47,612 bases of DNA from a virus, in the IMG/VR virus record IMGVR_UViG_3300025133_000187, positions 1 through 47,612 of that record, one strand, 5' to 3'. The notes beneath the pieces were generated by a model, which was not told the DNA's origin, did no database searches, and saw only the letters and a program-made list of their open reading frames with translations. Below, piece after piece: positions 11,696 through 47,612 of the stretch. The translations under genes were made by a program, and so were the position numbers. Every line of letters starts with the position of its first letter. The stretch's first letter is position 1.

Positions 11696-11697
11696 AC

Positions 11698-28480: not shown

Positions 28481-28873
28481 ATGGACTCCAGCAGTTACGT
28501 GACAGGACACGTCCACCTCGTGGAAGAAACCAAAACGTACGGCCAGAAGGGATTTCGGAAACGCCTCGTCGTTCTGGAGCAGGACGAAGGTGAGTACACA
28601 AACCTCGTCCCAGTCGAGTTCACCCGCGACCACTGCGATATTTGCACGATGGAAGCGGGCGATGAGATCACGGTCAGGTATCGCCTTCGAGGACGCGCTT
28701 GGCAGAAGGATAGTGATTCGGACGTGAAATACTTCCTGAATGCGGAAGCGGACGCCTGGCGTCCGATAGAGGACGATCACCGCGTAGATGCACCTGCACC
28801 TGCACCTGCACCTGCACCTGCACCTGCACCTGCACCTGCACCGAAAGTCAGCAGTGACGAGATCCCGTTCTGA
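28481..28873 (+). CDS. OB-fold ssDNA-binding-like protein (DUF3127 type) with Pro-Ala linker
   Basis: The start is ATG 28481 behind AAAGGAGGGAA, giving 130 aa. The body SYVTGHVHLVEETKTYGQKGFRKRLVVLEQ...NLVPVEFTRDHCDICTMEAGDEITVRYRLRGRAWQ fits the DUF3127 OB-fold pattern (strand, FVIEQ-like strand, KxGDEVTVxF strand). A (Pro-Ala)9 linker then leads to KVSSDEIPF, which copies the acidic C-terminal tip of SSB proteins that docks partner enzymes. It should coat single-stranded DNA and recruit replication or recombination proteins such as the ERF and exonuclease coded just downstream. Confidence 0.8.
   Translation: MDSSSYVTGHVHLVEETKTYGQKGFRKRLVVLEQDEGEYTNLVPVEFTRDHCDICTMEAGDEITVRYRLRGRAWQKDSDSDVKYFLNAEADAWRPIEDDHRVDAPAPAPAPAPAPAPAPAPKVSSDEIPF
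28789..28842 (+). repeat. TGCACC hexanucleotide repeat, nine units
   Basis: Nine perfect TGCACC units code for the Ala-Pro linker of the SSB-like protein. Gain or loss of a unit changes the linker by two residues without breaking the frame, so length polymorphism is expected. Confidence 0.9.
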
Positions 28874-35534: not shown

Positions 35535-36302
35535 GTGGATGCGCTGGAAAAATATCAGGGTGGTTGGGACCGTGAAGCTGTGCATGCGCTGGCAGTGCAT
35601 GCGGCTGATGCGTACACGGATGCTCCGGCTGGCGGGGAACTGATTCACAGTCGCCGCACGGATACGCAGGCGTTTCTGCACGATTACGGCACGCACAGCG
35701 TGCTGGCCTTTCGCGGAACGGAGACTCCGCAGTTGATCGAACTGCTCTCGGTCAAGACTCCGTTCTTGCGGAGGTTTCGTGATATTCTGACAGACATGAT
35801 GATCACGCAGGTGGATTGGGTGTGTGGCGGCAGGGTCCATCACGGATTCCACCGTGCGTTCCGGTCGGTTGAGGGGTCGCTGGAATCGGCACTTGGTCGT
35901 CTGAGTGATGAGAGCCGGTCAAACCTCTTCATATGCGGTCATTCTCTGGGTGGATCGCTCGCCACCCTTGCGGCATCACGGTTCCCGTTTCGCATGGTTG
36001 CTACCTTCGGTTCCCCGCGTGTGGGCAATCGTCGTTTCGCCCGCGTATTTGGCCTGTCCAATGCTGGTCGGTATTACCGGGTGGTCAACCGGGCAGATGT
36101 CGTGGCGCGAGTGCCTGTTCCAATCAGGTATGCGCACTGCGGCGTGCCGATTTTCATCCTTCATGACGGGCAGCTGTGGCCGAGACCGGGCCTGGGTGTG
36201 CGGATGGTGGCTCTCGTGCGGAATCTGATGCGAGGCAGAAGCGTCGTAATTTCCGATCACGGGATGGACAATTATTTGCAGGCGTTGGAGACCAAAAAAT
36301 GA
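35535..36302 (+). CDS. Class 3 lipase-like alpha/beta hydrolase
   Basis: The product is 255 aa from GTG 35535. The lipase-3 signature is complete: THSVLAFRGTE, VHHGFHRAF, ICGHSLGGSLATLAA (nucleophile Ser 137), ATFGSPRVGNRRFA, VVNRADVVARVP (Asp 188) and SDHGMDNYLQAL (His 242). All three catalytic residues are present, so it should hydrolyse lipid or other esters. There is no signal peptide, so it would act from the cytoplasm or need membrane opening. The stop overlaps the protease start (ATGA). In this spot it is a candidate for attacking the host membrane at exit. Confidence 0.88.
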   Translation: MDALEKYQGGWDREAVHALAVHAADAYTDAPAGGELIHSRRTDTQAFLHDYGTHSVLAFRGTETPQLIELLSVKTPFLRRFRDILTDMMITQVDWVCGGRVHHGFHRAFRSVEGSLESALGRLSDESRSNLFICGHSLGGSLATLAASRFPFRMVATFGSPRVGNRRFARVFGLSNAGRYYRVVNRADVVARVPVPIRYAHCGVPIFILHDGQLWPRPGLGVRMVALVRNLMRGRSVVISDHGMDNYLQALETKK

Positions 36303-37852
36303 TCAGTATTACCGCTGCGTCAATCGTGCTGTTGACCGCTGGATGGGCAGACCGGCCGGTTGAGTACCCTCTCATGCGGGTTGGTGGTGCGACGGCATTC
36401 GTTGTGGACAACAATCTGCTGCTGCATTGTATTCATGGTGTTCCCCCGTCGAAGACGCATATCAATCTGGTGGGTGGATCATCGGCGACCCGCGTTTCTA
36501 CGCTGCAAATGAACCCGATGCTGCCTGGTTGGCACGCACCGGCGAACAGTGATGGTACGAAGGAGGCCACGCGAGATGGGGTCACGGTCTGGCAGCTGCC
36601 GCAGCGATATCACACGCTGCAGCTGGCCCGTGATGACCCGGAGGTGGGAGACTTCTGCCGCGTTCAGGGGTATCCGGAAATGAAGTTTGAGCAGCAGACC
36701 GGCCGTGTCAAACGGATTGGGAAGTATCAGATGGAAATCACCTGTCTGGTGCGGCCAGGTTACAGCGGAGGCCCGGTATTGAACGCGGCCGGCGAGGTGA
36801 TCGGTATGGTTTGTTCGGTGACCGGTCCGCAGCACACTCCGCACCAGGAATACTGGGGGAGTGGCTGCGTAAAGCTCTCCACACTGAAATCTGCTGTGGC
36901 GATGGCGCAGAAAACTGCCCCAGGTCCGGAGTTACTGGAACCAGTCGCAGCCGAGCATTTGCCGGTGACGGATCGCCAGCCGGCTCAGGCCCAGCGTCAG
37001 GTTGTGGCGTTTGTGACAGAAAACTGCGGCGGTTGTGATGCGCTGAAGAATGACATAAAGCAGGGGCATTTCCGCCAGTTTAATATGGTTGTCGAGAACT
37101 ATTCACGGTCAACTCGTACCTGGCAGGATGGTGGCGAGTTGTTTGAGGAGTTTTGTCGAGCGACGAAATACAACGGTGGTCGGATCGTGTTTCCGGTGGT
37201 CTGGGTACGTGGCAGCACTCAGTACAAATCTGGGTATCTCCCTGCTCGTCGCGGTGGTCTGATCGGATTTATTGCGGGGATCCTTGACGGTGTGGCTGCG
37301 GTGGTGGTGGGTGAGCCGGAATCCGCCCCCTTCCCACAACCGTATCCGTTGGATGAGGATGAGAAGGTGTCCGACACGGTCCCGAAACCGGAAACCACTC
37401 CCGCACCGACGTCTGATCTGCGCAAGTCAATTGATGAGTTGCGAGAGGACATCACTGCGATCAAATCTGGCAATTTGTTCGAGAAAATTGGAGCGGTGCG
37501 GAGTCTCCGTGACGATGTGGCAGCAGTTAAGGCTGAGGCGTCAGATGCGTTGACTGTCGCACGGTCGGCGGAATCGGATGTGGAGAAAAAGCTCACAGAG
37601 CAGGCAGACCAGCTGCGAAAAGACATCGAGAACGTCCGCAGCGGGAACCCGTTTCTGAAAGCGAAGGGTGCGCTGGCCTTGAAAAAGGACGTAAAATCCT
37701 CGATCGATCTGGTCAAGGGTCAGGTCACAGAGATTAAAGCACTTGAGCCGGCGGCACTGATTGGCCTGATTGGTGCTATTCGAGCGTTTCTACGCCGGCG
37801 AAAAGAGGATCAGGAAGCGGACGAACTGGCTCAGATAGGAGGTGCGGCATGA
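36299..37852 (+). CDS. Trypsin-like protease fused to CGGC thioredoxin-like domain and coiled coil
   Basis: The start is ATG 36299, overlapping the lipase stop, giving 517 aa; the longer upstream frame runs through the lipase gene. Residues 1-17 look like a signal peptide (MISITAASIVLLTAGWA). The protease part has LLHCIHG (His 43), RDGVTVWQL (Asp 93) and RPGYSGGPVLN (Ser 156), so the triad is plausible. Residues 235-330 start VVAFVTENCGGCDALK, a thioredoxin/glutaredoxin-like CxxC. Then Pro-rich linkers, a coiled coil (about 395-490) and a hydrophobic segment LIGLIGAIRAFL lead to a charged end. It probably acts outside the inner membrane or tethered to it. Confidence 0.8.
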   Translation: MISITAASIVLLTAGWADRPVEYPLMRVGGATAFVVDNNLLLHCIHGVPPSKTHINLVGGSSATRVSTLQMNPMLPGWHAPANSDGTKEATRDGVTVWQLPQRYHTLQLARDDPEVGDFCRVQGYPEMKFEQQTGRVKRIGKYQMEITCLVRPGYSGGPVLNAAGEVIGMVCSVTGPQHTPHQEYWGSGCVKLSTLKSAVAMAQKTAPGPELLEPVAAEHLPVTDRQPAQAQRQVVAFVTENCGGCDALKNDIKQGHFRQFNMVVENYSRSTRTWQDGGELFEEFCRATKYNGGRIVFPVVWVRGSTQYKSGYLPARRGGLIGFIAGILDGVAAVVVGEPESAPFPQPYPLDEDEKVSDTVPKPETTPAPTSDLRKSIDELREDITAIKSGNLFEKIGAVRSLRDDVAAVKAEASDALTVARSAESDVEKKLTEQADQLRKDIENVRSGNPFLKAKGALALKKDVKSSIDLVKGQVTEIKALEPAALIGLIGAIRAFLRRRKEDQEADELAQIGGAA

Positions 37853-38094
37853 TTACGGCAATACTGGGAAGCACGGTCCTGCAGGGTGCGGTGGTGTATT
37901 TGCTGTCGGACAAGGCCGGCAGTTGGGCGTCCAATCTTCTCAGCAAAAAAGGTTTGCTGGGTTTGGGTACGAAAGCCTCAAAGGCTGTCGCTACGAACAG
38001 GCTGGAGCGTCGTCGCACGCAGGCGCGAGATGAGCGTGTTGCGTTTCTGCAGTCGGAGATCGATCGGCTGAATGGAGATGCGACCGATGCGTAG
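37849..38094 (+). CDS. Small membrane protein, holin-like candidate
   Basis: The product is 81 aa from an ATG overlapping the protease stop, behind AGGAGGTG. One hydrophobic helix at the start (MITAILGSTVLQGAVVYLLS) is followed by a Gly/Leu/Lys amphipathic part and a charged helical tail (NRLERRRTQARDERVAFLQSEIDRL). One membrane segment plus a charged tail fits small holins or pinholins, but also many other phage membrane proteins. Confidence 0.6.
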   Translation: MITAILGSTVLQGAVVYLLSDKAGSWASNLLSKKGLLGLGTKASKAVATNRLERRRTQARDERVAFLQSEIDRLNGDATDA

Positions 38095-38521
38095 ATACGT
38101 GCTGATCAGCCTTATTGGCCTTGTTGGTATTGGCATCGGGCGTGTGTCAGTGTCTGAACCGGCCCCTGTCACTGGCTGGACAACCCCGGCTACGGTGGTG
38201 AGTGTTTACGACGGTGATACTCTCACGGTCCAAGTCACTCGCCGTATGCGTGTGAGGATTCTGGATTGCTGGTGTAGTGAAATCCGGACTCGCGACAAAG
38301 CGGAGAAAGCCAAGGGTTTCGCTGCGCGGGATCACCTGAAATCGATACTTCCGGAGGGGAGTCAGGTAGTTCTGCAGATACCGAACTACACAGATTTGGG
38401 TAAATCGTTCACGTTTGGGCGAGTGCTGGGACAGGTGTGGCTACCGGATGGAGAGTCGTCGATAGCGGAGCAGATGGTGGCCTCGGGCCACGCGACAAAA
38501 ACGAAACAGCAACGGAGGTGA
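38087..38521 (+). CDS. Secreted SNase-like (thermonuclease) protein
   Basis: The start is ATG 38087 behind GGAG (in-frame ATGs at 38072 and 38078 are alternatives), giving 144 aa. A signal or anchor segment (MRRYVLISLIGLVGIGIGRVSV) comes first, then the staphylococcal-nuclease pattern: ATVVSVYDGDTLTVQV, MRVRILDCWCSEIRTRDKAEKAKGFAARDHL, GSQVVLQIP and GKSFTFGRVLGQVWL. The Asp of YDGDT and Arg of GRVLG are in place; the usual IDTPE is replaced by LDCWCSEI, so activity needs care. Such enzymes cut DNA or RNA outside the cytoplasm. Confidence 0.8.
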   Translation: MRRYVLISLIGLVGIGIGRVSVSEPAPVTGWTTPATVVSVYDGDTLTVQVTRRMRVRILDCWCSEIRTRDKAEKAKGFAARDHLKSILPEGSQVVLQIPNYTDLGKSFTFGRVLGQVWLPDGESSIAEQMVASGHATKTKQQRR

Positions 38522-38524
38522 CAA

Positions 38525-38737
38525 GTGGGAACGACTAAGAAAACAGCAATGTCGATTCGGGACACTGTGTCCCAAAATCTGTCTTCAGCCGATCGATGGC
38601 AGCTGGTGTGTGCGGTCACTCCAGCGATCGTGCAGCGGTTGTCGGATTCGGACCCGAAACGAGTGGCTGATCGTACCCTCACGGTCGTGAATGCCGTGGT
38701 AGCTGGGTTCATTAAGGAACGGGATGAACGCACCTGA
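38525..38737 (+). CDS. Small protein, unknown function
   Basis: The product is 70 aa from GTG 38525 behind CGGAGGTG. It is mostly helical (LSSADRWQLVCAVTPAIVQRLSDSDPKRVADRTLTVVNAVVAGFIKERDER). One copy of the 13-bp palindrome lies inside its first codons, where it spells RDTVSQ. A second ATG at 38549 has no good SD. Overlaps the next gene by 14 bases. Confidence 0.55.
   Translation: MGTTKKTAMSIRDTVSQNLSSADRWQLVCAVTPAIVQRLSDSDPKRVADRTLTVVNAVVAGFIKERDERT
38560..38572. promoter_or_regulatory. Palindrome GGACAC-T-GTGTCC, operator-like copy 5
   Basis: A perfect palindrome (with flanks GGGACACTGTGTCCC) located 35 bases inside the gene starting at 38525, the only copy within a coding region. It could still control a promoter for the downstream exit genes. 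Confidence 0.5.
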
Positions 38738-39167
38738 TGAGAACATTCATTCGATGGATTGGGGATCGGGCGGCAAAACGAACGCGATCATGCGTTTGAC
38801 GATGCAGGTTGCCAAGCTCGAAACTACGGTCAAGCAAGTGAGCGATGACGTTCGCGAGTCGGATCCCGATGCGCACCGGGAGCGGCTGGCTAAGATGGAC
38901 GCAAAGCTCGATGTGCTGGAGTCGCGGCTGGCTGTCACCGAGAAGGCTATGTCTGAACTGGATGATCTGAAAAGTGCGGCCAGATGGTTGTCTCCGAAAA
39001 ATGCCGGCATTCTGTTCATGGTCCTGTTTGGCGGTTCGACCGCAGCCAGTACGGCGATCGACCGTGTGACGCACGATCCGTCTACGGTCGAGCAGAAAAT
39101 CGAAACTCAGGACCAGCAGATGCAGCGTCTGATCGAGCAGTTGCAGCGGATGCAACAGGATGAATGA
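38724..39167 (+). CDS. Coiled-coil membrane protein, possible holin or spanin-like
   Basis: The product is 147 aa. A long N-terminal coiled coil (MRLTMQVAKLETTVKQVSDDVRESD...LAKMDAKLDVLESRLAVTEKAMSELDDL, about 25-85) is followed by one hydrophobic segment (NAGILFMVLFGGSTAASTAI, about 94-113) and a second short coiled coil (VEQKIETQDQQMQRLIEQLQRMQQ). This coil-TM-coil layout recalls XhlA-type or unusual holins. It overlaps the CAP gene by 4 bases (ATGA). Confidence 0.6.
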   Translation: MNAPDENIHSMDWGSGGKTNAIMRLTMQVAKLETTVKQVSDDVRESDPDAHRERLAKMDAKLDVLESRLAVTEKAMSELDDLKSAARWLSPKNAGILFMVLFGGSTAASTAIDRVTHDPSTVEQKIETQDQQMQRLIEQLQRMQQDE

Positions 39168-39571
39168 GTTACGTTCGCAATGCCTCAAGATGGTCTGAAT
39201 CCATGACGATTCTGCTGTTGTGCCTTGTTCCGGGCATACCATCCGCAATTCACGATCCGTCCACGGTCGCGATGCACCGGTCAGCGATGCAGTGGCGCAG
39301 ACACTATGGGCTGGCGGAACAGTCACTGGATGAGGACTGTTGTCGTCTGGCCCAGCAGCACGCAAAGTACATGGCACGGCATGAATACTACGAACACGGT
39401 GCAAATGACCAGGTGATCACAATTGGCTATCGGACTCCAGCTGCAGCGGTACGCAGCTGGATTTACTCTCCCCCTCACCTGCGGTGGATGCTGTCAGGCA
39501 ACAAAAAGGCCGGCTGGGGGCATGCTGTTTCCCCGGCCGGCCGGCACTACTGGTGTGGAGTGTTTCGTTAG
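39164..39571 (+). CDS. Secreted CAP (SCP/PR1)-domain protein
   Basis: The product is 135 aa from an ATG overlapping the previous stop. A signal-like stretch (MTILLLCLVPGIPSA, about 14-28) is followed by VAMHRSAMQWRRHYGLAEQSLDEDCCRLAQQHAKYMARHEYYEHG and AAVRSWIYSPPHLRWMLSGNKKAGWGHAV, ending YWCGVFR. These match the CAP pattern (first His, Glu of the HAxxMA helix, SPxH and the closing W/YW strand). CAP proteins bind lipids or act as peptidases or inhibitors; in a phage exit cassette the role is unknown. It ends convergent with the minus-strand array. Confidence 0.75.
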   Translation: MSYVRNASRWSESMTILLLCLVPGIPSAIHDPSTVAMHRSAMQWRRHYGLAEQSLDEDCCRLAQQHAKYMARHEYYEHGANDQVITIGYRTPAAAVRSWIYSPPHLRWMLSGNKKAGWGHAVSPAGRHYWCGVFR

Positions 39572-39972
39572 TCAAGAGTCTCCACGATGCCTCCACCGGC
39601 ATATGCCTCAACGCAGGCGTCCTTGTATCTAGCGGTGATTAACGCCTTGCGTCGTTCCTCCCGCTGATCCCATCGCGGGTGGTCTGGATACTGATCGACA
39701 TACTGGTAGGGATCATATTTCGAAAGCTGCTCGATCAGATCACTCTTCCGGTCTGTACCGGCGAACACGGTCGTCACGTCGTTTTCACGTTCGATTTCGG
39801 TCACATACTCCACCTGACCGACCAGAGTCCCGGCAGTGGTACGGTACAGCGTGACCACATGCCAACGCATAGTCCACTCAGGTTTCGCGTGTTCCGGTCG
39901 CCTGCCGCCTCGACCAATCATGTCACCGTCGAAGGTGAGGTCTGGCAGGCCGGTTCTCTGCAGAGTTATCAT
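39568..39972 (-). CDS. Unknown protein, last gene of the minus-strand array
   Basis: The product is 134 aa from ATG 39972 behind GGAG. A beta-rich first half (WHVVTLYRTTAGTLVGQVEYVTEIERENDVTTVFAG) leads into a charged helical half (DQREERRKALITARYKDACVEAYAGG). It overlaps the convergent CAP gene by 4 bases at the 3' ends. The upstream stop is 4 bases away, so it is coupled to the HTH-like gene before it. No family was recognised. Confidence 0.6.
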   Translation of the reverse strand: MITLQRTGLPDLTFDGDMIGRGGRRPEHAKPEWTMRWHVVTLYRTTAGTLVGQVEYVTEIERENDVTTVFAGTDRKSDLIEQLSKYDPYQYVDQYPDHPRWDQREERRKALITARYKDACVEAYAGGGIVETLD

Positions 39973-39976
39973 TGCA

Positions 39977-40213
39977 CTATCTCCATGCCCTGCGCAGGCC
40001 CAGTTTCCGCCGCATCTGAGATGCGAGTACGTGGAACGATTTCGTCGGCCGGCGAAGTATTTTGTCGTGTTTCAGCAGGCGTGCCAGCTGCCTGTTATTC
40101 AGGTCCGGCGCAGCGGACAAGTAGTCGCAGATCGCCCCGGTGATCGTCATCTTGAACTCCGTGACCTGATGTTTTGCCAGGAGTTTCGGATCGGTAATCT
40201 CGGTGACATTCAT
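39977..40213 (-). CDS. Small helical protein, unknown
   Basis: The start is ATG 40213 behind AGGGAGT, giving 78 aa; the longer frame only adds leader sequence. Helical and basic (DPKLLAKHQVTEFKMTITGAICDYL, LNNRQLARLLKHDKILRRPTKSFHVLASQMRRKLGL). The spacing NNRQLARLL...SFHVLASQMRR could be a small HTH-like DNA-binding fold. The leader element with stem-loop lies directly upstream. Confidence 0.6.
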   Translation of the reverse strand: MNVTEITDPKLLAKHQVTEFKMTITGAICDYLSAAPDLNNRQLARLLKHDKILRRPTKSFHVLASQMRRKLGLRRAWR

Positions 40214-40310
40214 CGGTGTGTACTCCCTGTGTATTTGCCTGCCAGGTGCCGGGCAGTTGCGGCTCGATCGCGAATCGCGATCACTCTCACCCTTTATCAG
40301 ATCACGGTCT
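40214..40310 (-). repeat. Leader element copy (stem-loop CTGCC..GGCAG plus 17-bp palindrome)
   Basis: Contains CTGCC...GGCAG at 40239-40256 and the perfect palindrome GATCGCGAATCGCGATC at 40266-40282. A CACGGTC motif is near 40303. The ATG-proximal part is diverged (SD AGGGAGT rather than TGGAGATTACGACC). It separates the 78-aa gene from the 181-aa gene upstream. Confidence 0.7.
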
Positions 40311-40856
40311 CTATTCTGGGTCACAGTGTGGGAAGTGGTCCTGGATTTCAAGCAGGCTCTTTTGCAGCGCGGTGAACAGTTCTGGGTGCAGTGGGAAATC
40401 GTCGTTCAGGTCAATGATCGACCGGCAGTCCAGCCAGAGGTGTCGGATTGCTGTATCGCCGGGCGATAACTGCTGTGCCGTGGTGGATTCTCCCTGGCCC
40501 AGGTCCGCAGAATCGTCCAACGGATAGAAATGCAGGCTCCAATGAAATCCGCATTCATACCAGTAGCCATGGCCGGCCAGGAACGTCTGGAATTGTTCCA
40601 TCAATTGCCAGTCTCCGTCACTCGGGAAACCGTAATTCAGGGCCACGCACAGGTCGCCTTCGGTGATCAGCGTGCCTCCTGCAGCGGTGTTTCCGTACGG
40701 TTCTCCACGGTCCTGCCACTGCGACTGGGTGTACAGCCTGCCGCAGCGGCTGTGGACTGGGTCGTCCGAGTCCCAGAAATCGTGATATGTTCCGGATCTG
40801 AGCCACTCGACGAGGGCAGTGTGGAATTCGGCTGGGGGTGTGGTTGTCTGTTTCAT
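40311..40856 (-). CDS. Unknown protein (181 aa) with leader element
   Basis: The start is ATG 40856, 9 bases behind the leader's GGAG. Sequence rich in aromatic and acidic residues (FHTALVEWLRSGTYHDFWDSDDPVHSRCG, GYWYECGFHWSLHFYPLDDSADL, DTAIRHLWLDCRSIIDLNDDFPLHPELFTALQKSLLEIQ). It looks like a single folded domain of the small phage-unknown type. No catalytic pattern was found. Confidence 0.65.
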   Translation of the reverse strand: MKQTTTPPAEFHTALVEWLRSGTYHDFWDSDDPVHSRCGRLYTQSQWQDRGEPYGNTAAGGTLITEGDLCVALNYGFPSDGDWQLMEQFQTFLAGHGYWYECGFHWSLHFYPLDDSADLGQGESTTAQQLSPGDTAIRHLWLDCRSIIDLNDDFPLHPELFTALQKSLLEIQDHFPHCDPE

Positions 40857-40929
40857 GGTCGTAATCTCCAGTCTGCCGGTATGCCGGGCAGTTGCGGCTG
40901 GATCGCGAATCGCGATCACTGATTTTGGG
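40857..40929 (-). repeat. Leader element copy, best preserved
   Basis: In the sense of the minus-strand genes it carries GATCGCGATTCGCGATC (40901-40917), the stem CTGCCGGTATGCCGGGCAG region at 40873-40891 and the SD block ACTGGAGATTACGACC running straight into ATG 40856. It is the reference copy for the others. Confidence 0.85.
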
Positions 40930-41361
40930 TCAGTCAGTCACGGTCTGGTCCTTGTTCCTGCCTGATTCTATGAGGAACCGGAGTACCTCATCCTCCAAGG
41001 GCTGCGAGGTGAACTGGCACGGTTCCACCACCTCGACCGTGCAGCATCCGAACCGGTGATCAATCTGTGTCCGCAACCTCTCTCCTGCAGGCATCAAGGG
41101 GTCGCGGATGCCTGCCTCTGGTTCGAGCCTGTCATGGATGCGGATCCAGGTGTGATCGTCTGCCAGCGGGAAGTCGGCAGCGAAGTCTTCTGGAAGCGCA
41201 TTGCATGCGCCCCGCACAACCAGGCGGTCGGCTAACAAATTGTCCTTGATCCATTCGACAACCCGCTGCCGTGGTGCTGAGGTTAGCCACAATCGTGGAT
41301 CCCCAGCTTCATCCACACCCAGTTGCACGACCTCCATCTCGACGATTACACGTATCGTCAT
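40930..41361 (-). CDS. Unknown protein (143 aa)
   Basis: The start is ATG 41361 behind TGGAGGAT; the longer frame runs through the terminator. It begins with a beta strand (MTIRVIVEMEVVQLGVDEAG), and the rest is mixed (RQRVVEWIKDNLLADRLVVRG, HTWIRIHDRLEPEAG, FGCCTVEVVEPCQFTSQPLEDEVLRFLIESG). Not recognised. Its leader is not of the repeated type; it follows an intrinsic terminator instead. Confidence 0.6.
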   Translation of the reverse strand: MTIRVIVEMEVVQLGVDEAGDPRLWLTSAPRQRVVEWIKDNLLADRLVVRGACNALPEDFAADFPLADDHTWIRIHDRLEPEAGIRDPLMPAGERLRTQIDHRFGCCTVEVVEPCQFTSQPLEDEVLRFLIESGRNKDQTVTD

Positions 41362-41380
41362 AGCAATCCTCCAGTCAGGG

Positions 41381-41413
41381 TAAAAATCAGGGGGGCTGAA
41401 ACAGCCAACCCCC
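41381..41413 (-). terminator. Intrinsic terminator, minus strand
   Basis: On the minus strand GGGGGTTGGCTG-TTT-CAGCCCCCC forms a strong stem with a two-base bulge, followed by TGATTTTTA. It lies 14 bases behind the stop of the 107-aa gene and ends that transcript. Confidence 0.8.
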
Positions 41414-41426
41414 TCACCTCTTGCGT

Positions 41427-41750
41427 TTAGATACTCACTCTCCACAGCATCCCATCGAGACATTCACGCAGGGCTGCGTGTTCCTCAGGCTTGAAGCTGT
41501 CGATAGCCTTCAGAACTTTCTTCAACTTCCCGGTCATCCGCCGGGCGACTGCCTTAGCACCAGCCATTTCAAATATCTGCCAGTCATCAGGCGTAACCGG
41601 AATTTGATACGGGCGTCTGAGATAATGCTGGCGGATACAGTGCTGAAACTCACCGTCAGGTTCAGTGTCAGCCGCTCCAAACTCAGCTGTCTCAGCAGTG
41701 AGAGTCTCAAATTCTTTCCATGCTGCTTCAAGTTTTTCGACAGAACTCAT
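41427..41750 (-). CDS. Unknown small protein (107 aa)
   Basis: The start is ATG 41750 behind AGAGGAAA. Helical throughout (SVEKLEAAWKEFETLTAETAEFGA, GAKAVARRMTGKLKKVLKAIDSFKPEEHAALRECLDGML) with a short middle (PYQIPVTPDDWQIFEMAG). It stands alone between terminators on both sides, so it is probably a single-gene transcript. Function unknown. Confidence 0.65.
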   Translation of the reverse strand: MSSVEKLEAAWKEFETLTAETAEFGAADTEPDGEFQHCIRQHYLRRPYQIPVTPDDWQIFEMAGAKAVARRMTGKLKKVLKAIDSFKPEEHAALRECLDGMLWRVSI

Positions 41751-41776
41751 GGCGTTTCCTCTGCAGTAAGAGAACA

Positions 41777-41885
41777 GGGGGCTGGAACATCCAACCCCTT
41801 AATCGCAGCTTAATCGCACTTCATGGTAAAAATCAGGGGGGGCTGAGAACATCCAACCCCCTTAATCGCAGCTTAATCGCACTTC
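41777..41885 (-). terminator. Duplicated terminator-like element (two copies)
   Basis: A 46-base block (GGGGCTG..AACATCCAACCCC followed by TTAATCGCAGCTTAATCGCA) occurs at 41778-41823 and again at 41839-41885. Each has a GGGG/CCCC stem; the second copy is followed on the minus strand by TGATTTTTACC (A-run at 41828-41832) and is a good intrinsic terminator (41827-41861). The first is weaker. Confidence 0.65.
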
Positions 41886-41919
41886 GAGGTCTGTGAGACA
41901 GCACACAGATCCTGCCATG

Positions 41920-42070
41920 AACGGAACCGAACGGAACTGCCAACGGAACCGAACGGAACCGAACGGAACTGCCAACGGAACCGAACGGAACCGAACGGAA
42001 CTGCCAACGGAACCGAACGGAACCGAACGGAACTGCCAACGGAACCGAACGGAACCGAACGGAACCGAAT
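41920..42070. repeat. Non-coding 32-bp tandem array (iteron-like)
   Basis: The block GGAACTGCCAAC begins at 41933, 41965, 41997 and 42029, a period of exactly 32 bases; each unit also contains two GGAACCGAAC subrepeats. A truncated unit (GGAACCGAATCG) closes it at 42061. No supported gene covers it: the open frames across it are repeat translations. It lies in the 371-base gap 41751-42121, together with the duplicated terminators. Replication-origin iterons or a ParB-type centromere are the main ideas. Confidence 0.8.
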
Positions 42071-42121
42071 CGTCCATAAAACGCCAGAAATATCGAATCT
42101 GCGGTTGCGTCGTGTTGTGCG

Positions 42122-42358
42122 TCATACCACTGGCATTCCGCATGATCCGCAGTACAGGTCAGGGTCCACGGTATCGACCTCCGTAGACCCGCAGTGCGGG
42201 CAGTCACTGTCGATCGTGTCGTCGGACTGCAGATCGCGATCACTCTCGACCGTGATCCGGTCACGGTGTCTGATCCAGTCCACCAGTGTCGTCATGATCA
42301 GCAGGAATAAACCCGCGATCAGGACAAACGGGGTGATGGTGTGCATGGTTTCGGTCAT
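42122..42358 (-). CDS. Small membrane protein with C-terminal zinc ribbon
   Basis: The start is ATG 42358 behind AAGGAGGG, overlapping the previous stop (ATGA), giving 78 aa. One membrane helix (TITPFVLIAGLFLLIMTTLVDWI, about 7-29), a charged linker, then CPHCGSTEVDTVDPDLYCGSCG, a four-Cys zinc ribbon at the C-terminal end. It would be anchored with the ribbon most likely in the cytoplasm. Confidence 0.75.
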   Translation of the reverse strand: MTETMHTITPFVLIAGLFLLIMTTLVDWIRHRDRITVESDRDLQSDDTIDSDCPHCGSTEVDTVDPDLYCGSCGMPVV

Positions 42359-42966
42359 TTCAGCCCTCCTTTCCGGGCAGCTGCGACCAGGTCACGCCGG
42401 ATCGCGGATTCAGTCCGAGGCGTCGAGACCTCGACTTTGAGGATGAACCGGAAGTAGCTGCGGTCTCGGATGACCCTGCAACCCTCTTCGGCAACGTCCA
42501 GTTTCAGTCGTTCCATTCCTTCCGGGTAGTAATAGTTTCGGGCAGCACCCTCTCGCCGTTCGAGGCCGAGGAAGTCTTTGACCTGCTCGGGCAAGTCGTC
42601 GGCGCGAACGTGCGGTCCACGTCGGTTGCGGCGTCCCCAGCAACAGAGGACGCCACCGATTGAGTTCCTGAAAGCGACTTCCCAGGTCTGGGTCGTCTTG
42701 GTCGCTGTTTCGACCAAGTATTCGCCCAGCGGGTCGTTGCCGGTAGCGGCGACGTGCTGCCGGTACTCGTCCCATGCTTTCCGCTCGTCTTCGTAGCTTG
42801 GTAGATCGGACTGTTGACACTGGTCATGGTCGCCGTCGCTGTATTCGTCGAAGGTGAAGCCGGTCTCGACTTCGTCGTCGATCCAGTAGGTCGCCCGATG
42901 CCAGCCGACGTTGCAGCCATCAGAGTTGCCACAGTGCCAGGGGATTGACGTGATGATGTCTTGCAT
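42355..42966 (-). CDS. Unknown protein (203 aa)
   Basis: The start is ATG 42966, 10 bases behind the leader's GGAG. N-terminal part with paired Cys/His (SIPWHCGNSDGCNVGWHRATYWIDDEVETGFTFDEYSDGDHDQC), then a helical middle and WEVAFRNSIGGVLCCWGRRNRRG...SYFRFILKVEVSTP strands. Three Cys/His groups may bind metal. No family was recognised. Confidence 0.65.
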   Translation of the reverse strand: MQDIITSIPWHCGNSDGCNVGWHRATYWIDDEVETGFTFDEYSDGDHDQCQQSDLPSYEDERKAWDEYRQHVAATGNDPLGEYLVETATKTTQTWEVAFRNSIGGVLCCWGRRNRRGPHVRADDLPEQVKDFLGLERREGAARNYYYPEGMERLKLDVAEEGCRVIRDRSYFRFILKVEVSTPRTESAIRRDLVAAARKGGLK

Positions 42967-43079
42967 TGTTCGAAATCTCCAGTCCTGCCGGGAGCCGGGC
43001 AGGTGCGGCTTATGTCGGTCTATGTCGGTCTATGTCGGTCTTATGTCGGCCTATGTCGGTCTATGTCGGCTGGTCGCGA
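42967..43079 (-). repeat. Leader element copy carrying a 10-bp tandem repeat
   Basis: Stem CCTGCC...GGCAGG at 42984-43003, followed (on plus) by about six units of TATGTCGGTC/TATGTCGGCC at 43011-43070, then GTCGCGATCACTCTTGGCTGGTCA, the usual leader flank. The repeat sits where other copies have the CGGCTGGATCGCG segment, so it looks like an expansion of local sequence. This 113-base gap has no gene. Confidence 0.8.
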
Positions 43080-43364
43080 TCACTCTTGGCTGGTCACAGG
43101 TTCGTGCTGGCCACAGGCATACACCCAGGCGGCTCGCATCATTTCCGCCAGTCGTTCCTCGCTGTCGAATTGGCTGTCGAATTCGTTGTCATCCCAGTCG
43201 TGAGAGTCTCCGCTGTGGTCGGTGTCGATCCCGACAGTCACCGTATGTCCGAGATCAGCAACGTACTCGGCCATTAGCGCATTCAGGGCGTCACGGTCAG
43301 CTGGCGTGGCCTCCCAACCGTAGGAATCGAGCGAGCCAGAAAAGTGCAGGATGACGTGCGCCAT
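43080..43364 (-). CDS. Unknown small acidic protein (94 aa)
   Basis: The start is ATG 43364 directly behind the leader's TGGAGATAACGACC. It reads MAHVILHFSGSLDSYGWEATPADRDALNALM, then VADLGHTVTVGIDTDHSGDSHDWDDNEFDSQFDSEERLAEMMRAA. Beta-alpha fold with a very acidic centre; acidic small phage proteins can mimic DNA and block host nucleases, but nothing here proves that. Confidence 0.65.
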   Translation of the reverse strand: MAHVILHFSGSLDSYGWEATPADRDALNALMAEYVADLGHTVTVGIDTDHSGDSHDWDDNEFDSQFDSEERLAEMMRAAWVYACGQHEPVTSQE

Positions 43365-43498
43365 GGTCGTTATCTCCAGTCTGCCAGGATGCCGGGCAGT
43401 GTCGGCTGGATCGCAAAACGCGATCACTCTCGGCTGGTCGCAGCGTGCGCCCTGGTCCCGGTCCGACGGTTGCCGGGCCGGGTGCAGGAATCACGGTC
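43365..43498 (-). repeat. Composite leader: GC hairpin (A) plus stem-loop/SD (B)
   Basis: B: CTGCC...GGCAG at 43381-43399 and the imperfect palindrome GATCGCAAAACGCGATC at 43409-43425. A: CCGGTCCG...CGGGCCGG hairpin within about 43456-43480, with GAATCACGGTC next to the upstream stop. Same order as at 45380-45488 and 46082-46178. Confidence 0.8.
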
Positions 43499-43753
43499 TC
43501 AGTCCTCTGCGTCTGAAAATGCATCGACGTGCGTAACCGGACAGGCAGCGTCCAGCTGCTCGAAAATGGTTCGCCGGGCGGGATTGCCGTAGCTGTAGCC
43601 GGAATCTTCCGGCTCGCTGCCGTGGTATGCGACCTGTGCGTCAGTGTGATCTGTGCCGCAGTACAGCACGATCGTGCGCCAGTGCGTACAGTCAGGCTGT
43701 AGGCTGGTCGTGGTTTTGCAGATCACTCGGTAGATTGTCGTGGTCGTGGTCAT
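43499..43753 (-). CDS. Unknown small protein (84 aa)
   Basis: The start is ATG 43753 behind GGAGGAGATTACGACC. It opens MTTTTTIYRVICKTTTSLQP and goes on CTHWRTIVLYCGTDHTDAQVAYHG, then FEQLDAACPVTHVDAF. Probably one small beta-rich domain. The leader ATG placement rules out the longer frame that starts in the next gene. Function unknown. Confidence 0.65.
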   Translation of the reverse strand: MTTTTTIYRVICKTTTSLQPDCTHWRTIVLYCGTDHTDAQVAYHGSEPEDSGYSYGNPARRTIFEQLDAACPVTHVDAFSDAED

Positions 43754-43805
43754 GGTCGTAATCTCCTCCTGCCAGTATGCCGGGCAGGTGCGGCGTGGTC
43801 GCCGG
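43754..43805 (-). repeat. Leader element copy (short)
   Basis: CCTGCCAGTATGCCGGGCAGG at about 43768-43788 followed by the SD block and ATG 43753. The distal palindrome is missing. Confidence 0.75.
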
Positions 43806-44006
43806 CTACCACAGCCGGCGTTGTTTCGGGGTTGTAGGTGTTTCCGCTGTCGGTGTGTCACGGTCACCAGCTGCCCGCAGGCAGTGCCAGCAGAGTGAGC
43901 CTCCAGCGTGTTCCACTGGTGCGGCACACTCGCAAGTGCCGTGGGGGTGGTAGTCATATCGTTCCTGTAGCGTCTGAAATGCAGGCGCGTTTTCATTGTG
44001 CAGCAT
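43806..44006 (-). CDS. Small Cys-containing protein (66 aa), zinc-binding candidate
   Basis: The start is ATG 44006 behind GGGGAGGAG. Cys pattern CECAAPVEHAGGSLCWHC (four Cys plus His) suggests one zinc site; polar tail rich in Thr/Pro follows. Its 5' end overlaps the next gene upstream by 14 bases. No family was recognised. Confidence 0.6.
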   Translation of the reverse strand: MLHNENAPAFQTLQERYDYHPHGTCECAAPVEHAGGSLCWHCLRAAGDRDTPTAETPTTPKQRRLW

Positions 44007-44274
44007 GTCGTGGCTCCTCCCCTTTCTGGGCATCCTGGTATTGCCACTGCCCGGAATTCCAGCGGCGCGCGGTTTCCAGACATTGATACGCCAGCAAAAG
44101 TTGGCAGCGACTGCCGGTCAGATACGCCTGCCGGATAGCCTCGCTGTTGATCTGCCGGAGTTCTGTGACGGTCAGTGTTCGGAGAAAGTCATATACTGAT
44201 TCCATCGCTGCCCCGTCCGGTTTTTCCCCGTGCCACGGTCCACGTGCCACCTCAATCGTCCAGTCAATCGGCAT
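43993..44274 (-). CDS. Unknown small protein (93 aa)
   Basis: The start is ATG 44274 behind GAGGAGG. MPIDWTIEVARGPWHGEKPDG, then a helical stretch (ESVYDFLRTLTVTELRQINSEAIRQAYL, CQLLLAYQCLETARRWNSGQW). Both ends overlap neighbours (ATGA-type coupling), so 44449-43806 is one tight translational unit of three genes without leader elements between them. Confidence 0.6.
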   Translation of the reverse strand: MPIDWTIEVARGPWHGEKPDGAAMESVYDFLRTLTVTELRQINSEAIRQAYLTGSRCQLLLAYQCLETARRWNSGQWQYQDAQKGEEPRHAAQ

Positions 44275-44449
44275 CGCGTGCCTCCTCATGGGGCGATGAC
44301 CAGGTTGTCAGTCGCACGTTGTGCGCTGCCTCGTGCGCCAGGCGGATTGCCGGGAGAATCTCCGCAGCGGTGGCCCCATTTTCCGCCTGGCCCATTGCAT
44401 ACTCGATCAGAGCGCGGCAGGCAATCAGGTCCAGATTGTTGTCGTCCAT
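44264..44449 (-). CDS. Unknown small protein (61 aa)
   Basis: The start is ATG 44449 behind AAAGGGA. MDDNNLDLIACRALIEYAM is followed by GQAENGATAAEILPAIRLAHEAAHNVRLT. Short helical acidic protein. It lies 10 bases behind the conserved Cys-rich gene. Confidence 0.6.
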   Translation of the reverse strand: MDDNNLDLIACRALIEYAMGQAENGATAAEILPAIRLAHEAAHNVRLTTWSSPHEEARDAD

Positions 44450-44459
44450 GTTGTCCCTT

Positions 44460-45092
44460 TCAGATTTTGAGGAAGGCAATGTGCCGGCCGGCAGGGGGTT
44501 CCCAGCACAATCGGCAGGTTCTGCAGGTTACATCCGGCACGGTTCCGCCGCTTTTGGCCTTGTCGTATGGGCAGGCGATTTCATTTTCTGCACGGTCTGC
44601 GGGGCTGTCAATCACTCGCGCAGTCGTCCAGCCTGCCGCCTGTGCAGCCTGAGCGGTGGGCAGATCGTCGCAGCTGGCCAGAATCGTCAGGTTCGGGGGC
44701 CAGGCGTCCGGCCCGACTCCGGCACGGTCCCAGACCTCCCAGTCGTGCGTGTAGCTCCAGCCATGCGTCCGGGGTTGTCCGGCATGCCAGGCGATGACTT
44801 GCCGCACGTAGGCGACATCGAGCCGCGTGTATGCTCCCCACCGGCGAAACCAGCCACCGGAAACCATCAGCCGCAGCAGATCCATTCCCGCGGCCTGGTC
44901 CAGATCACCGTCGTCGTCGGCAGCTGCCGCCTGATGCATGTTCACCCGTCCGCGCTGGGCGTAACAGCCATCGTCGAGCAGTCCGCACCCCAGCGGGCAG
45001 GTAGGCCCGACCGGGCGATACGTGGCGGAAACGGGGCCGGTTTTGCGGTCGCCGCTCACACGGACGACCTTGGTCTGAGGCAGTCGGTACAT
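44460..45092 (-). CDS. Conserved Cys-rich phage protein, unknown
   Basis: The start is ATG 45092 behind GGGGGAT, overlapping the previous stop, giving 210 aa. The N-terminal SATYRPVGPTCPLGCGLLDDGCYAQRGR (about 23-50) and C-terminal CPYDKAKSGG...VTCRTCRLCWEP carry seven to eight cysteines arranged as if for a metal or Fe-S site. In between, WSYTHDWEVWDRAGVGPDAWP, LTILASCDDLPTAQAAQAAGWTTARV look like TIM-barrel-type strands. I remember this TYRPVGPTCP layout from phage and planctomycete proteins of unknown function. Resemblance to radical-SAM-type barrels is only suggestive. Confidence 0.7.
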   Translation of the reverse strand: MYRLPQTKVVRVSGDRKTGPVSATYRPVGPTCPLGCGLLDDGCYAQRGRVNMHQAAAADDDGDLDQAAGMDLLRLMVSGGWFRRWGAYTRLDVAYVRQVIAWHAGQPRTHGWSYTHDWEVWDRAGVGPDAWPPNLTILASCDDLPTAQAAQAAGWTTARVIDSPADRAENEIACPYDKAKSGGTVPDVTCRTCRLCWEPPAGRHIAFLKI

Positions 45093-45379
45093 CACAGATC
45101 CCCCTGCTCACGGTCGAGCCGGTCAGCAATCGCCTGAGTGATCGCCAGCGACCGGCGGACCATGCTGTCACGCCCACGCAGTGCAGCCTCAACGATGTCC
45201 AGGGGGTGAACTGCGTGCAGTCCGCACACGTCGCAGCGTTCGAGTCGGCGGATTTCACGGTCAGGGGTCCAGACCTGTGAGCCGCAGGAAAAACACCAAC
45301 CGCAGGCATCGCCAGTGATCTGTGCCTTAATTCGCGACTGCTCGACCCGGAAGCGGGTTATGTCGGGGTGTCGTTGCAT
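45092..45379 (-). CDS. Zinc-ribbon-like protein, MQRHP paralogue 1
   Basis: The start is ATG 45379 behind TGGAGATTACGACAG, giving 95 aa. MQRHPDITRFRVEQSRIKAQI is followed by CGWCFSCGSQVWTPDREIRRLERCDVCG, with CxxC pairs in ribbon spacing, then a helical tail. The next gene upstream starts with the same MQRHP.IT and has the same Cys layout; they are duplicates. Regulator or nucleic-acid binder is a guess. Confidence 0.7.
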   Translation of the reverse strand: MQRHPDITRFRVEQSRIKAQITGDACGWCFSCGSQVWTPDREIRRLERCDVCGLHAVHPLDIVEAALRGRDSMVRRSLAITQAIADRLDREQGDL

Positions 45380-45488
45380 CTGTCGTAATCTCCATCCTGC
45401 CGTGTAGCCGGGCAGGTTCGGCCGGTCGCGGTCGTGCGTCCTGGTCCAGGTCCGGCAGTGCGCCGGGCCTGGTGCAGGAATCACGGTA
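45380..45488 (-). repeat. Composite leader element (A plus B)
   Basis: B: CCTGCCGTGTAGCCGGGCAGG at about 45396-45416. A: CCAGGTCCGGC-AGTGC-GCCGGGCCTGG at about 45446-45472, 11-bp stem with one T-G pair, followed by TGCAGGAATCACGGTA next to the upstream stop. Best hairpin A copy. Confidence 0.8.
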
Positions 45489-45692
45489 TCACGTCAGTGT
45501 GAACATCAGCTGTTCCGCGCCGTAGACGGCGTATGCGCCGCATTCCTCGCAGCGGTAGTGTTCTGCGTCCGGTTCGCAGCCCTCAGCGTCTGCGCCGCAG
45601 TCCAGGCAGAATCCGGGGTAGTCGTTGCCAAACATCGACAGTTCGGCGGCGGCAATGATTCGGTCTTCGGTGATGCTGGGGTGTCGTTGCAT
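45489..45692 (-). CDS. Zinc-ribbon-like protein, MQRHP paralogue 2
   Basis: The product is 67 aa from ATG 45692 behind TGGAGATTACGACAG. MQRHPSITEDRIIAAAELSMF is followed by CLDCGADAEGCEPDAEHYRCEECG. Zinc ribbon like its downstream neighbour, but with a shorter tail. Gene and leader are duplicated together, since the bases around the start codon are nearly identical in both. Confidence 0.7.
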   Translation of the reverse strand: MQRHPSITEDRIIAAAELSMFGNDYPGFCLDCGADAEGCEPDAEHYRCEECGAYAVYGAEQLMFTLT

Positions 45693-45778
45693 CTGTCGTA
45701 ATCTCCATCCTGCCGGAAGCCGGGCAGGTTCGGCGGGGGCGAATTGCCCCCCTCACCAATTAAACGCATCAGTCACGG
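45693..45778 (-). repeat. Leader element copy
   Basis: CCTGCCGGAAGCCGGGCAGG at about 45709-45728, then (on plus) TTCGGCGGGGGCGAATTGCCCCCCTCACC, which adds a GGGGGCGAATTGCCCCC hairpin found in no other copy. The SD block TGGAGATTACGACAG follows toward the ATG. Confidence 0.75.
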
Positions 45779-46081
45779 TCAGCTGTGTTTTGAGGTTCGG
45801 TCTGGACTGTTCAGATCAACGATGTGTTCCACGATGTTCCCGTACAAATTTCTGCCCTTCACCAATTTCAGGCTGCCGTCGTCACGTCGGATCGTGAACG
45901 TATGCTGTCCGGTTTTCTCGCCGTACGAGTGGCGCAGGATCACGCCCGTCACCCGGTCAGTCCCGATACGCTGGGGCCGGCCGCGCTGCCGGCCCCCGAA
46001 AAACGAACCGCCGGCGAAAATCGGCAGGTCGACGGTGACCCGGTCACCGGTGCGGATTGCGTCTGTGGTCTGTGTGGTCAT
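45779..46081 (-). CDS. Small beta-rich protein (100 aa), unknown
   Basis: The start is ATG 46081 behind TGGAGACTACGACC. TGDRVTVDLPIFAGGSFFGG, RVTGVILRHSYGEKTGQHTFTIRRDDGSLKLVKGRNLYGNIVEHIV read as an SH3-like barrel of four or five strands, the kind found in nucleic-acid-binding or adaptor proteins. No specific family. Confidence 0.65.
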   Translation of the reverse strand: MTTQTTDAIRTGDRVTVDLPIFAGGSFFGGRQRGRPQRIGTDRVTGVILRHSYGEKTGQHTFTIRRDDGSLKLVKGRNLYGNIVEHIVDLNSPDRTSKHS

Positions 46082-46178
46082 GGTCGTAGTCTCCAGCTGC
46101 CAGGATGCCGGGCAGTGTCGGCGGGTCGCGTCGTGCGTCCATGTCCAGGCCCGGTGTGTGCCGGGCCGGGTGATGGAT
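46082..46178 (-). repeat. Composite leader element (A plus B)
   Basis: B: CTGCC...GGCAG at 46097-46115. A: GGCCCGG-TGTGTG-CCGGGCC at about 46149-46168. Flank GGATTCACGGTCGAGTGA is adjacent to the upstream gene's stop. Stem A differs in sequence from the other copies but still pairs. Confidence 0.8.
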
Positions 46179-46409
46179 TCACGGTCGAGTGACCCGGATC
46201 TTCAGTCGCCAGTCCATACAGTCCGCAGCGGTGGCGGCGGTCCAGCCCCACATGTCCACGCTGTTGTCGTCGTCGATGTGGTGATCAATTTCGCCCGTGA
46301 AAACGTCGCGGCATGCCTCCAGCGCGTCGCTACAATCTCCCGCGAAGGTGACGTTGACGATTTCGTTGTGGCTAATGCTCCGCTCGATGGCGGCTCTGAT
46401 GTCGTTCAT
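46179..46409 (-). CDS. Unknown small acidic protein (76 aa)
   Basis: The start is ATG 46409 behind TGGAGACACTGAACCA. MNDIRAAIERSISHNEIVNVTFAGDCSDALEACRDVF, then the acidic EIDHHIDDDNSVDMWGWTAATAADCMDW and a basic end. A short alpha/beta fold; no family recognised. Confidence 0.65.
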   Translation of the reverse strand: MNDIRAAIERSISHNEIVNVTFAGDCSDALEACRDVFTGEIDHHIDDDNSVDMWGWTAATAADCMDWRLKIRVTRP

Positions 46410-46447
46410 TGGTTCAGTGTCTCCAGTCCTGCCGGATGCCGGGCGGG
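46410..46447 (-). repeat. Leader element copy (degenerate stem)
   Basis: CCTGCCGGATGCCGGGCGGG at about 46428-46447; the stem end is changed (GGCGGG instead of GGCAGG), leaving C-G pairs but one mismatch. The SD block TGGAGACACTGAACCA is shared only with the following copy at 46652. Confidence 0.65.
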
Positions 46448-46651
46448 TCATGCGTCACCCCCTTCCACGGTCACCAGGCGGGCCGGCCAGCGGCTCTGGA
46501 TTTCCGCTCGCACGGTCGCAGCTGCGGTGAGCGCGGTCCACGCTGTGGGGACGGTCGACGCGCCAAACGTCTGCAGGATGACCGGGTCATCCGGGAAAGT
46601 TGCAAGCCAGCCTGCCGGCGTGCGCGTCAGAATGATCTGTTGCTGTGTCAT
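46448..46651 (-). CDS. Unknown small protein (67 aa)
   Basis: The start is ATG 46651 behind TGGAGACACTGAACC. MTQQQIILTRTPAGWLATFPDDPVILQTFGASTVPTAWTALTAAATVRAEIQSRWPARLVTVEG. The single-strand/helix/strand pattern and PAGWLATFPDDP wording resemble HicB-like small antitoxin folds (beta-strand, helix, strand), but no toxin partner is adjacent. The resemblance is weak. Confidence 0.6.
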   Translation of the reverse strand: MTQQQIILTRTPAGWLATFPDDPVILQTFGASTVPTAWTALTAAATVRAEIQSRWPARLVTVEGGDA

Positions 46652-46709
46652 GGTTCAGTGTCTCCATCCTGCCAGGATGCCGGGCAGGTTCGGCTGATCA
46701 CGGCTGTGA
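46652..46709 (-). repeat. Leader element copy with extra hairpin
   Basis: CCTGCCAGGATGCCGGGCAGG at 46668-46688, and an 8-bp stem CTGATCAC-GGCT-GTGATCAG at 46694-46713 that overlaps the stop codon of the PP-loop gene. It could also serve as that gene's transcript end. Confidence 0.75.
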
Positions 46710-47612
46710 TCAGAACAGGGTCAGCTGTGGTTCTGGTGGTGCTGTGTGTTCCACGGTCACCGGTTCCGGCAGGTTGCCAGGCCGGAGTGTAGGGTCGTCG
46801 GGTGTGTCGTCGTCGAGTTTCTCACGCCAGGTCCGCTGTGATGCCAGGCCGCGGTACTCACCGCGGAAGTGCCGGCCGGCCTGGAAACGCTCCTCCAGAT
46901 CGGTGGCAGCGTCAAATTCCTCGGGCGGCATTTCGCGCAACTCGCACGCTTTGCTGATAGGACACATGAAGCACGCGCTTTTGCCCGGTGACGGGAGGCC
47001 GGCAGCAGTGATCGAGGCCAGGCAGTCGGCGCGGGTCATCTGCCAGTCAACCAGCGGATACCACTGCACGAAATCGGTGTCATTGTCCACGCTGTACCTG
47101 ATCGCTCGCCGGCCGGTTTCCGTCGATTCGTAGCCGATCGCCTCTGTCGCCGCACCGCGCCGTGTCGGCATTTCGTCGGCGTCGAATCCGATCGCAGTGG
47201 TTGCCGACGGTCGCAGCACCCAGCCGAGCAGTCGTTGATATTTCCGCTGCGGTTCCAGTTTCCAGCTGATGCTGCAGCTGTGATTCTGGTGGAATGCCGG
47301 GGATGGCAGCTGTTCCGTGTTCCACGCCTGTTCGTACAGGGACCGGTGACCGGCGCGGGGGCATCGCCGGCGAACGATCACCAGCGGCGGAAATCCGACG
47401 GACGCCAGCCATTTCTCCAGCACGGTCACCGCTCGGTACGTGTGCCGTCTTTCGCTGCCTGTGTCTGCCCAGGTGATCAGGTCCGGCCGGATGCCGCGGT
47501 TGTGCATTTCGACGAGCATCGCCCAGCTGTCGACGCCCATCCCACAGGCGACGATCAGGCGTGGCCGGTCGTGATCTGGCCGCGGGTAATCGCGCGGATG
47601 TATCGACGCTTC
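46710..47612 (-). CDS. PP-loop / PAPS-reductase-like protein (5' end outside window)
   Basis: The minus-strand frame is open to the window edge, so the start is missing; at least 300 residues are visible. RLIVACGMGVDSWAMLVEM is the PP-loop (SGGxDS-like) that binds ATP, followed by LITWADTGSERRHTYRAVTVLEKWL, typical of PAPS-reductase-type adenine nucleotide alpha hydrolases common in phages. Two Cys near the end (SACFMCPISKACELREMPPEEF) may bind metal or be redox-active. Related folds act in sulfur transfer, DNA phosphorothioation (DndC) and 7-deazaguanine synthesis (QueC); the real substrate is unknown. Confidence 0.8.
   Translation of the reverse strand, partial: EASIHPRDYPRPDHDRPRLIVACGMGVDSWAMLVEMHNRGIRPDLITWADTGSERRHTYRAVTVLEKWLASVGFPPLVIVRRRCPRAGHRSLYEQAWNTEQLPSPAFHQNHSCSISWKLEPQRKYQRLLGWVLRPSATTAIGFDADEMPTRRGAATEAIGYESTETGRRAIRYSVDNDTDFVQWYPLVDWQMTRADCLASITAAGLPSPGKSACFMCPISKACELREMPPEEFDAATDLEERFQAGRHFRGEYRGLASQRTWREKLDDDTPDDPTLRPGNLPEPVTVEHTAPPEPQLTLF

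Follow-up and report, generated by a model that had tools for sequence, protein, structure and literature searches.

What does a short, almost unvarying block of DNA do when it stands directly in front of the start codons of many small, unrelated phage genes? The question is raised by a 47,612-bp virus contig, IMG/VR record IMGVR_UViG_3300025133_000187, whose whole length is referred to here as the window. One end of the window holds an accessory gene array on the minus strand (Table 1), in which an original prediction, made from the letters alone, had described about ten copies of a leader composed of a stem-loop and a Shine-Dalgarno (SD) sequence. We found that almost all small accessory genes or gene pairs of this region begin behind a shared leader. 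On the evidence below, and with a probability of roughly 0.6, we read the copies of this leader as one family of expression leaders associated with gene starts, carried by a temperate phage in its accessory region and copied as whole intergenic blocks.

A shared leader before non-coupled genes

All ten predicted minus-strand copies exist, at 40.2-46.7 kb, each immediately before a start codon. The hairpin pattern occurs 10 times in the array, compared with a mean of 0.002 in dinucleotide shuffles, and the SD-block pattern 9 times, compared with a mean of 0.115; the hairpin pattern gave no match on the opposite strand or in the remainder of the window. The estimate of about ten copies holds for the window, but a companion contig that abuts it (IMGVR_UViG_3300025133_000918, 17,682 bp; L108) contributes four further minus-strand leaders, at 1559, 1217, 892, and 242, one of them before a gene cut by the contig edge. 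Fourteen leaders are thus spread over approximately 9.5 kb beside the integrase gene, all in the same orientation as the genes.

Read in the direction of the genes, the leader is GCCG-NNN-CTGCCCGGC-(2-5 nt)-GGCAG-(0-3 nt)-TGGAGA-(TTACGA or CACTGA)-CC-(0-2 nt)-ATG, where CTGCCCGGC and GGCAG are the constant parts. The predicted order of hairpin, SD, and ATG was borne out with some amendments: the true 5′ start lies at a near-invariant GCCG, the region of the second arm is CTGGCAG in only about half of the copies and CGGCAG in the rest, and the copy at 40256 lacks the usual SD block. The hairpin has a 5-bp stem and an 8- to 9-nt loop, its arms being CTGCC and GGCAG in 13 of 14 copies, with CCGCC in the remaining one, and folding in native context predicted that the stem forms in most copies. 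An SD block, GGAGA, with a conserved spacer is present in 13 of 14 leaders, and every leader ends in ATG. Conservation spans the GCCG, the hairpin, the SD, the spacer, and the ATG, and most of the 21 invariant alignment columns lie outside the SD.

The leader precedes 14 of the 16 non-coupled translation units, defined as those that neither overlap nor abut the upstream gene (from which 38-134 nt separate them in the window), and none of the coupled genes, which overlap or closely trail a neighbor (45092, 44449, 44274, 44006, 42358, and 39972). The two non-coupled genes without a leader, 41750 and 41361, are instead preceded by terminator-like hairpins with T-rich tails. As predicted, the proteins encoded behind the leaders are mutually unrelated except for one zinc-ribbon-like pair, 45692/45379 (37% over 60 aa; E value, 4e-9); a DUF7227/Gp88-like gene (45092-44460, minus strand) is coupled behind the second member of this pair. 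The expectation that a repeated expression-type leader would precede accessory genes, anti-defense genes among them, was likewise supported, at least for ArdA. The PAPS-reductase-like protein matches phrog_424 (4e-28), and its gene gave the sole match, a weak SspD-like one, in a PADLOC scan.

Two tandem repeats also lie within the array. About six copies of a 10- to 11-nt unit (GACATAGACC in gene sense) occupy window positions 43009-43079, immediately upstream of leader copy 8, and a 371-bp gap contains a tandem array of GAACGGAACC (41919-42069), a 10-mer with a higher-order period of 32 and 4.6 identical copies.

Structured modules, copied blocks, and relatives of the phage

A hairpin that we termed the type A module is found straight after the stop codon in six intergenic regions, upstream of the leaders. 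Five of its base pairs are retained through changes on both sides, and its covariation score was 0.275, compared with 0.107 for shuffled alignments (0/500), in what is a small sample of six sequences. The type A module is a structured element. No T run accompanies the leaders or the type A modules, and because of this, type A is not a classical intrinsic terminator. In other gaps, hairpins of types B and C replace or supplement type A. No Rfam family was matched.

Over 88 aligned nt, the intergenic blocks that precede L108 genes 207 and 1183 share 93% identity; the flanking upstream gene ends and downstream gene starts share only 38% and 17%, respectively (gapped columns were left uncounted throughout). 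In a few gene pairs, the likeness reaches into the first 12-15 nt of reading frames that are otherwise unrelated (ATGACCACACAGACC; MTTQT, MTTTTT). The pattern is consistent with stop-to-start blocks having been duplicated or recombined inside this genome. The original prediction had staked itself on similarity reaching beyond the SD, and whole intergenic blocks are indeed duplicated before unrelated genes.

Table 1. Features of the accessory region and its relatives. Positions refer to the window unless a contig is named; the higher coordinate of each leader is the 5′ end of its CTGCC arm (minus strand).
Feature	Position	Strand	Remarks
Whole accessory array	39568..47612	-	Extends into L108 1-1559 (- strand)
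Leader copy 1	46649..46687	-	Hairpin, SD, ATG of gene 46651-46448
Leader copy 2	46407..46446	-	CCGCC variant; ATG of gene 46409-46179
Leader copy 3	46079..46115	-	ATG of gene 46081-45779, DUF7699
Leader copy 4	45690..45727	-	ATG of zinc-ribbon-like gene 45692-45489
Leader copy 5	45377..45415	-	ATG of paralogous zinc-ribbon-like gene 45379-45092
Leader copy 6	43751..43787	-	ATG of gene 43753-43499
Leader copy 7	43362..43399	-	ATG of gene 43364-43080
Leader copy 8	42964..43002	-	ATG of gene 42966-42355
Leader copy 9	40854..40891	-	ATG of gene 40856-40311
Leader copy 10	40211..40256	-	Hairpin retained, SD block diverged; ATG of gene 40213-39977
Type A post-stop hairpin module	46124..46178	-	Directly after stop of gene 46409-46179; covarying structure
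Type A post-stop hairpin module	45424..45484	-	
Type A post-stop hairpin module	43436..43494	-	Followed by type C hairpin at 43425-43409
Type B hairpin GGGGGGCAATTCGCCCCC	45735..45752	-	Upstream of leader copy 4; similar block before first L108 leader
Type C hairpin GATCGCGATTCGCGATC	40901..40917	-	Upstream of leader copy 9
Type C hairpin	40266..40282	-	Upstream of leader copy 10
Three terminator-like hairpins, GGGG(G)TTGG..CAGCCCC(C), T-rich tails	41391..41861 (41861-41838, 41798-41778, 41413-41391)	-	Before leaderless genes 41750 and 41361
ArdA antirestriction gene	L108 855-316	-	Pfam E value, 1.5e-18
PAPS-reductase-like gene	46710..47612	-	Cut by contig end; leader 242 and ATG 207 in L108 (-)
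Tyrosine integrase (recombinase)	L108 2279-3409	+	Adjoins array, divergent from it
Terminase large subunit	L108 4267-6162		
GTTACACGCG(N)AAC copies	G574:C365 5802, 17924, 18314, 50613, 62337		

Since L108 overlaps both ends of the window (126 identical bases at one end and 119 bases at 98% at the other), the two contigs can most simply be read as one circular or permuted temperate phage of approximately 65 kb, which is previously undescribed. It encodes an ERF-type recombinase and an exonuclease, and L108 also carries an SU10-like adaptor gene. Relatives of its virion genes are found in the planctomycete prophages G574:C365, G395, and G724 (capsid 56-58% and terminase 39% to the first of these), and a planctomycete host is therefore likely. 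Although the virion genes match, none of the array genes had a match in G574 or G724.

Several further features of this phage were recorded. Just upstream of the integrase gene, the palindrome TCGGACGCGCGGCGTCCGA occurs four times at 31- to 32-bp spacing (L108:2246-2376); these copies, between the divergent integrase and array, are likely operator or integrase arm sites. Upstream of the array, L108:2123-2221 contains three CGGACAG and three CTGTCCG repeats, each set at 11- to 12-bp spacing and the two sets facing each other, which are iteron- or operator-like. Beside the array, window positions 35535-39571 carry in a row genes for a class 3 lipase, a trypsin-like peptidase, a weak staphylococcal-nuclease-like match, and a CAP-domain protein, and the lipase and peptidase genes have relatives in the G574 prophage contig. 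A single open frame of 4658 aa (window 11653-25629) gave one DUF7178 match and no further Pfam family. The plus-strand region includes a perfect 36-nt tandem duplication (window 26363-26434) and nine copies of a TGCACC hexamer (28789-28842).

The original prediction had proposed looking for the same leader in other phages, and this search found it nowhere else: no other IMG/VR contig and no GTDB r220 genome has a repeated leader. In IMG/VR, repeated leaders (wider leader patterns included) and the type A pattern were confined to this phage. The 66 leader-pattern matches in GTDB r220 genomes occurred once per record and none was repeated; single and scattered over unrelated genera, they were judged to be chance matches. 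IMG/VR queries with the helicase, integrase, and PAPS reductase returned this phage alone, whereas the terminase query retrieved a short sister without the array (L112) and a contig at 42% (L113) with no integrase or leader within its 2.3 kb upstream. When the array was compared with phage and plasmid records by blastn, there was no match except a short coding one to a plasmid PAPS reductase. The G574 prophage has its own distinct start-associated repeat, GTTACACGCG(N)AAC, located approximately 28-33 nt before the ATG on one strand, and all 5 copies in the 7.9-Mb genome fall within the 70-kb prophage contig. Neither the G395 nor the G724 prophage gave a start-associated repeat that clearly exceeded the shuffled maximum. 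Judging from two members, start-associated repeats of lineage-specific sequence appear to recur in this phage group.

Readings of the leader

We favor action at the RNA level because the hairpin, SD, spacer, and ATG are fused, strand and position are strict, only non-coupled units carry the element, the surroundings are GC rich (approximately 65% upstream of starts, with no AT-rich box), and no sigma-70 promoter was found at the leaders, the entire array yielding 1 sigma-70-like site (44611-44583, away from any leader) versus 1.8 expected. Transcription would start in the integrase-adjacent region and yield one long minus-strand RNA, or a few, covering the array. Along these, the post-stop and pre-SD hairpins may separate cistrons through mRNA processing, stability, or insulation, and the conserved leader would supply each unit with its own standard, possibly coregulated, translation start. 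New units might arise when a whole stop-to-start block is copied before an acquired gene, the leader spreading within the genome by duplication or recombination. In a bolder and rather doubtful version of the expression-leader reading, an RNA-binding regulator of the phage or the host would bind the hairpin (CUGCC, C bulge, GG, loop, CC/CU, and GGCAG abutting the SD) and switch the translation of about 14 accessory and counter-defense genes jointly, as a translational regulon spread to acquired genes by stop-to-start block copying.

Some results weigh against expression leaders acting in the RNA. The array promoter was not identified, the one match being weak (L108 1840-1811), and the SD accessibility predicted by folding was 0.49 for leader genes and 0.46 for non-leader genes, with no clear difference. 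The alignment called for by the original prediction proved well conserved, but four of the five stem pairs never vary and there are 0 compensatory changes; since the stem is invariant, covariation neither favors nor disfavors an RNA hairpin, and the element could equally be read as a DNA palindrome. Furthermore, ESAS repeats in phage Adephagia (introduced below) carry putative SigA-like promoters (PMC11373665), and a promoter not of the sigma-70 type is conceivable. The main rival is possible though on balance unlikely. In it, the leader would be a transcriptional element, a promoter or an operator palindrome (CTGCC-N8-9-GGCAG) to which a regulator of the phage or the host binds, and whole-block copying alone would have kept the SD conserved. 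A transcriptional role is also proposed for the ESAS of Adephagia. An inverted repeat that is invariant without compensatory changes agrees with this, as does the promoter activity of the intergenic repeats of halovirus HF2 (PMC8707807), but leaders show no -35/-10 pairs and no AT-rich box at their GC content, the spacing of the arms differs by 1 nt, and only one strand carries the element, which is tied to the SD and ATG and whose conservation continues through the SD and spacer.

We consider it improbable that the leaders are PeSL-like recombination cassettes whose main role is gene exchange among related phages, with the shared blocks serving as sites of homologous recombination. Near-identical blocks between unrelated genes, the shared first 12-15 coding nt of a few of them, the recombinase and exonuclease genes, and the lack of detectable relatives of array genes in the G574 prophage, where virion genes do have relatives, would all suit such a role; however, no related leader-bearing phage was found among IMG/VR contigs, the element contains no early promoter, and within-genome duplication accounts for the data. 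An integron-like array, with the hairpins as attC sites of the neighboring divergent tyrosine recombinase, might be suspected from the position of that gene and from the uniformly oriented single hairpin per gene unit. We rejected it as a very remote prospect, given the wrong integrase type (13.4 bits against the integron-integrase model TIGR02249, where the cut-off is 265) and the lack of conserved RYYYAAC/GTTRRRY attC boxes in the leader alignment; moreover, the repeats stand on the 5′ side of genes and not on the 3′ side, joined to the SD and ending at the ATG, and Rfam gave no match. Least credible of all is that there are only strong SD sites plus chance GC-rich palindromes: the SD does belong to the element, but the shuffles (10 hairpin matches versus 0.002 expected) refute this, and the 21 invariant columns lie mostly outside the SD.

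Because the hairpin-SD block is fused and comes in 14 natural variants alongside a covarying post-stop hairpin, its role is directly testable with reporters. The leader also flags otherwise unrecognizable small genes, ArdA among them, as candidates for counter-defense.

Comparison with known systems

The original prediction likened the leaders to the PeSL promoter-terminator cassettes of T4-type phages (PMC4503421). Both are repeated intergenic stem-loop blocks before small accessory genes, but membership is not supported, as no promoter was detected in the leaders; no other leader-bearing phage was found among IMG/VR contigs to give comparative evidence of shuffling. Repeated intergenic blocks precede viral genes in HF2 as well, but these carry AT-rich promoter motifs with promoter activity (PMC8707807), whereas the leaders here are GC rich and contain an SD. 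Cluster O mycobacteriophages resemble this phage in having many invariant inverted repeats in a single genome; their 17-bp palindromes, however, are hardly oriented in any meaningful way and about ten of them are intragenic (PMC4351075), whereas all copies here are at starts and on one strand.

The closest known kind is not PeSL but the start-associated sequences (SAS) and extended SAS (ESAS) that actinophages of clusters K and EF carry. Knowledge of start-associated repeats in phages of actinobacteria goes back to 2011, with no function assigned. Among Microbacterium phages, cluster EF has SAS/ESAS, EG has 18-bp inverted repeats, and EC/EI have motifs (PMC7302621). In these phages, as here, about ten repeats lie at or just before non-structural start codons, the EG inverted repeats 14-22 bp before them (PMC7302621), but there is no sequence similarity, and no fusion to a conserved SD block is described for the EG repeats. 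Cluster K mycobacteriophages carry 11-19 SAS/ESAS copies per genome, an SD-containing block of unknown function a few nt before the ATG (PMC3203893, PMC12699233, PMC11373665). Copy number, position at starts, SD content, single orientation, association with non-structural genes that have larger intergenic gaps, an upstream inverted repeat with a variable spacer, and absence from the host and other phages are all shared with our leaders. They differ in that the 5-bp stem with its 8- to 9-nt loop abuts the SD in 13 of 14 leaders, whereas the 17-bp imperfect repeats of cluster K occur at about half of the sites. In addition, the sequence is another one, there is an extra covarying post-stop hairpin module, no SigA-like promoter was seen, and the lineage is related to planctomycete prophages.

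The leader does not match the SAS/ESAS consensus (GGGATAGGAGCCC in K and GGGAAAGGACCCC in EF) and is thus of the same kind but of another family. The original suggestion that the element was unreported therefore stands for the leader sequence but not for its kind, already described in clusters K (PMC3203893) and EF (PMC7302621). New here are the sequence, the host group, and the layout, in which a hairpin abuts the SD in nearly every copy and a post-stop module is added. That an unrelated lineage linked to planctomycete prophages has this arrangement with a sequence of its own, and the distant relative G574 a third sequence, suggests that independent or rapidly evolving solutions have met what may be a common need, a single shared start signal for many small accessory genes.

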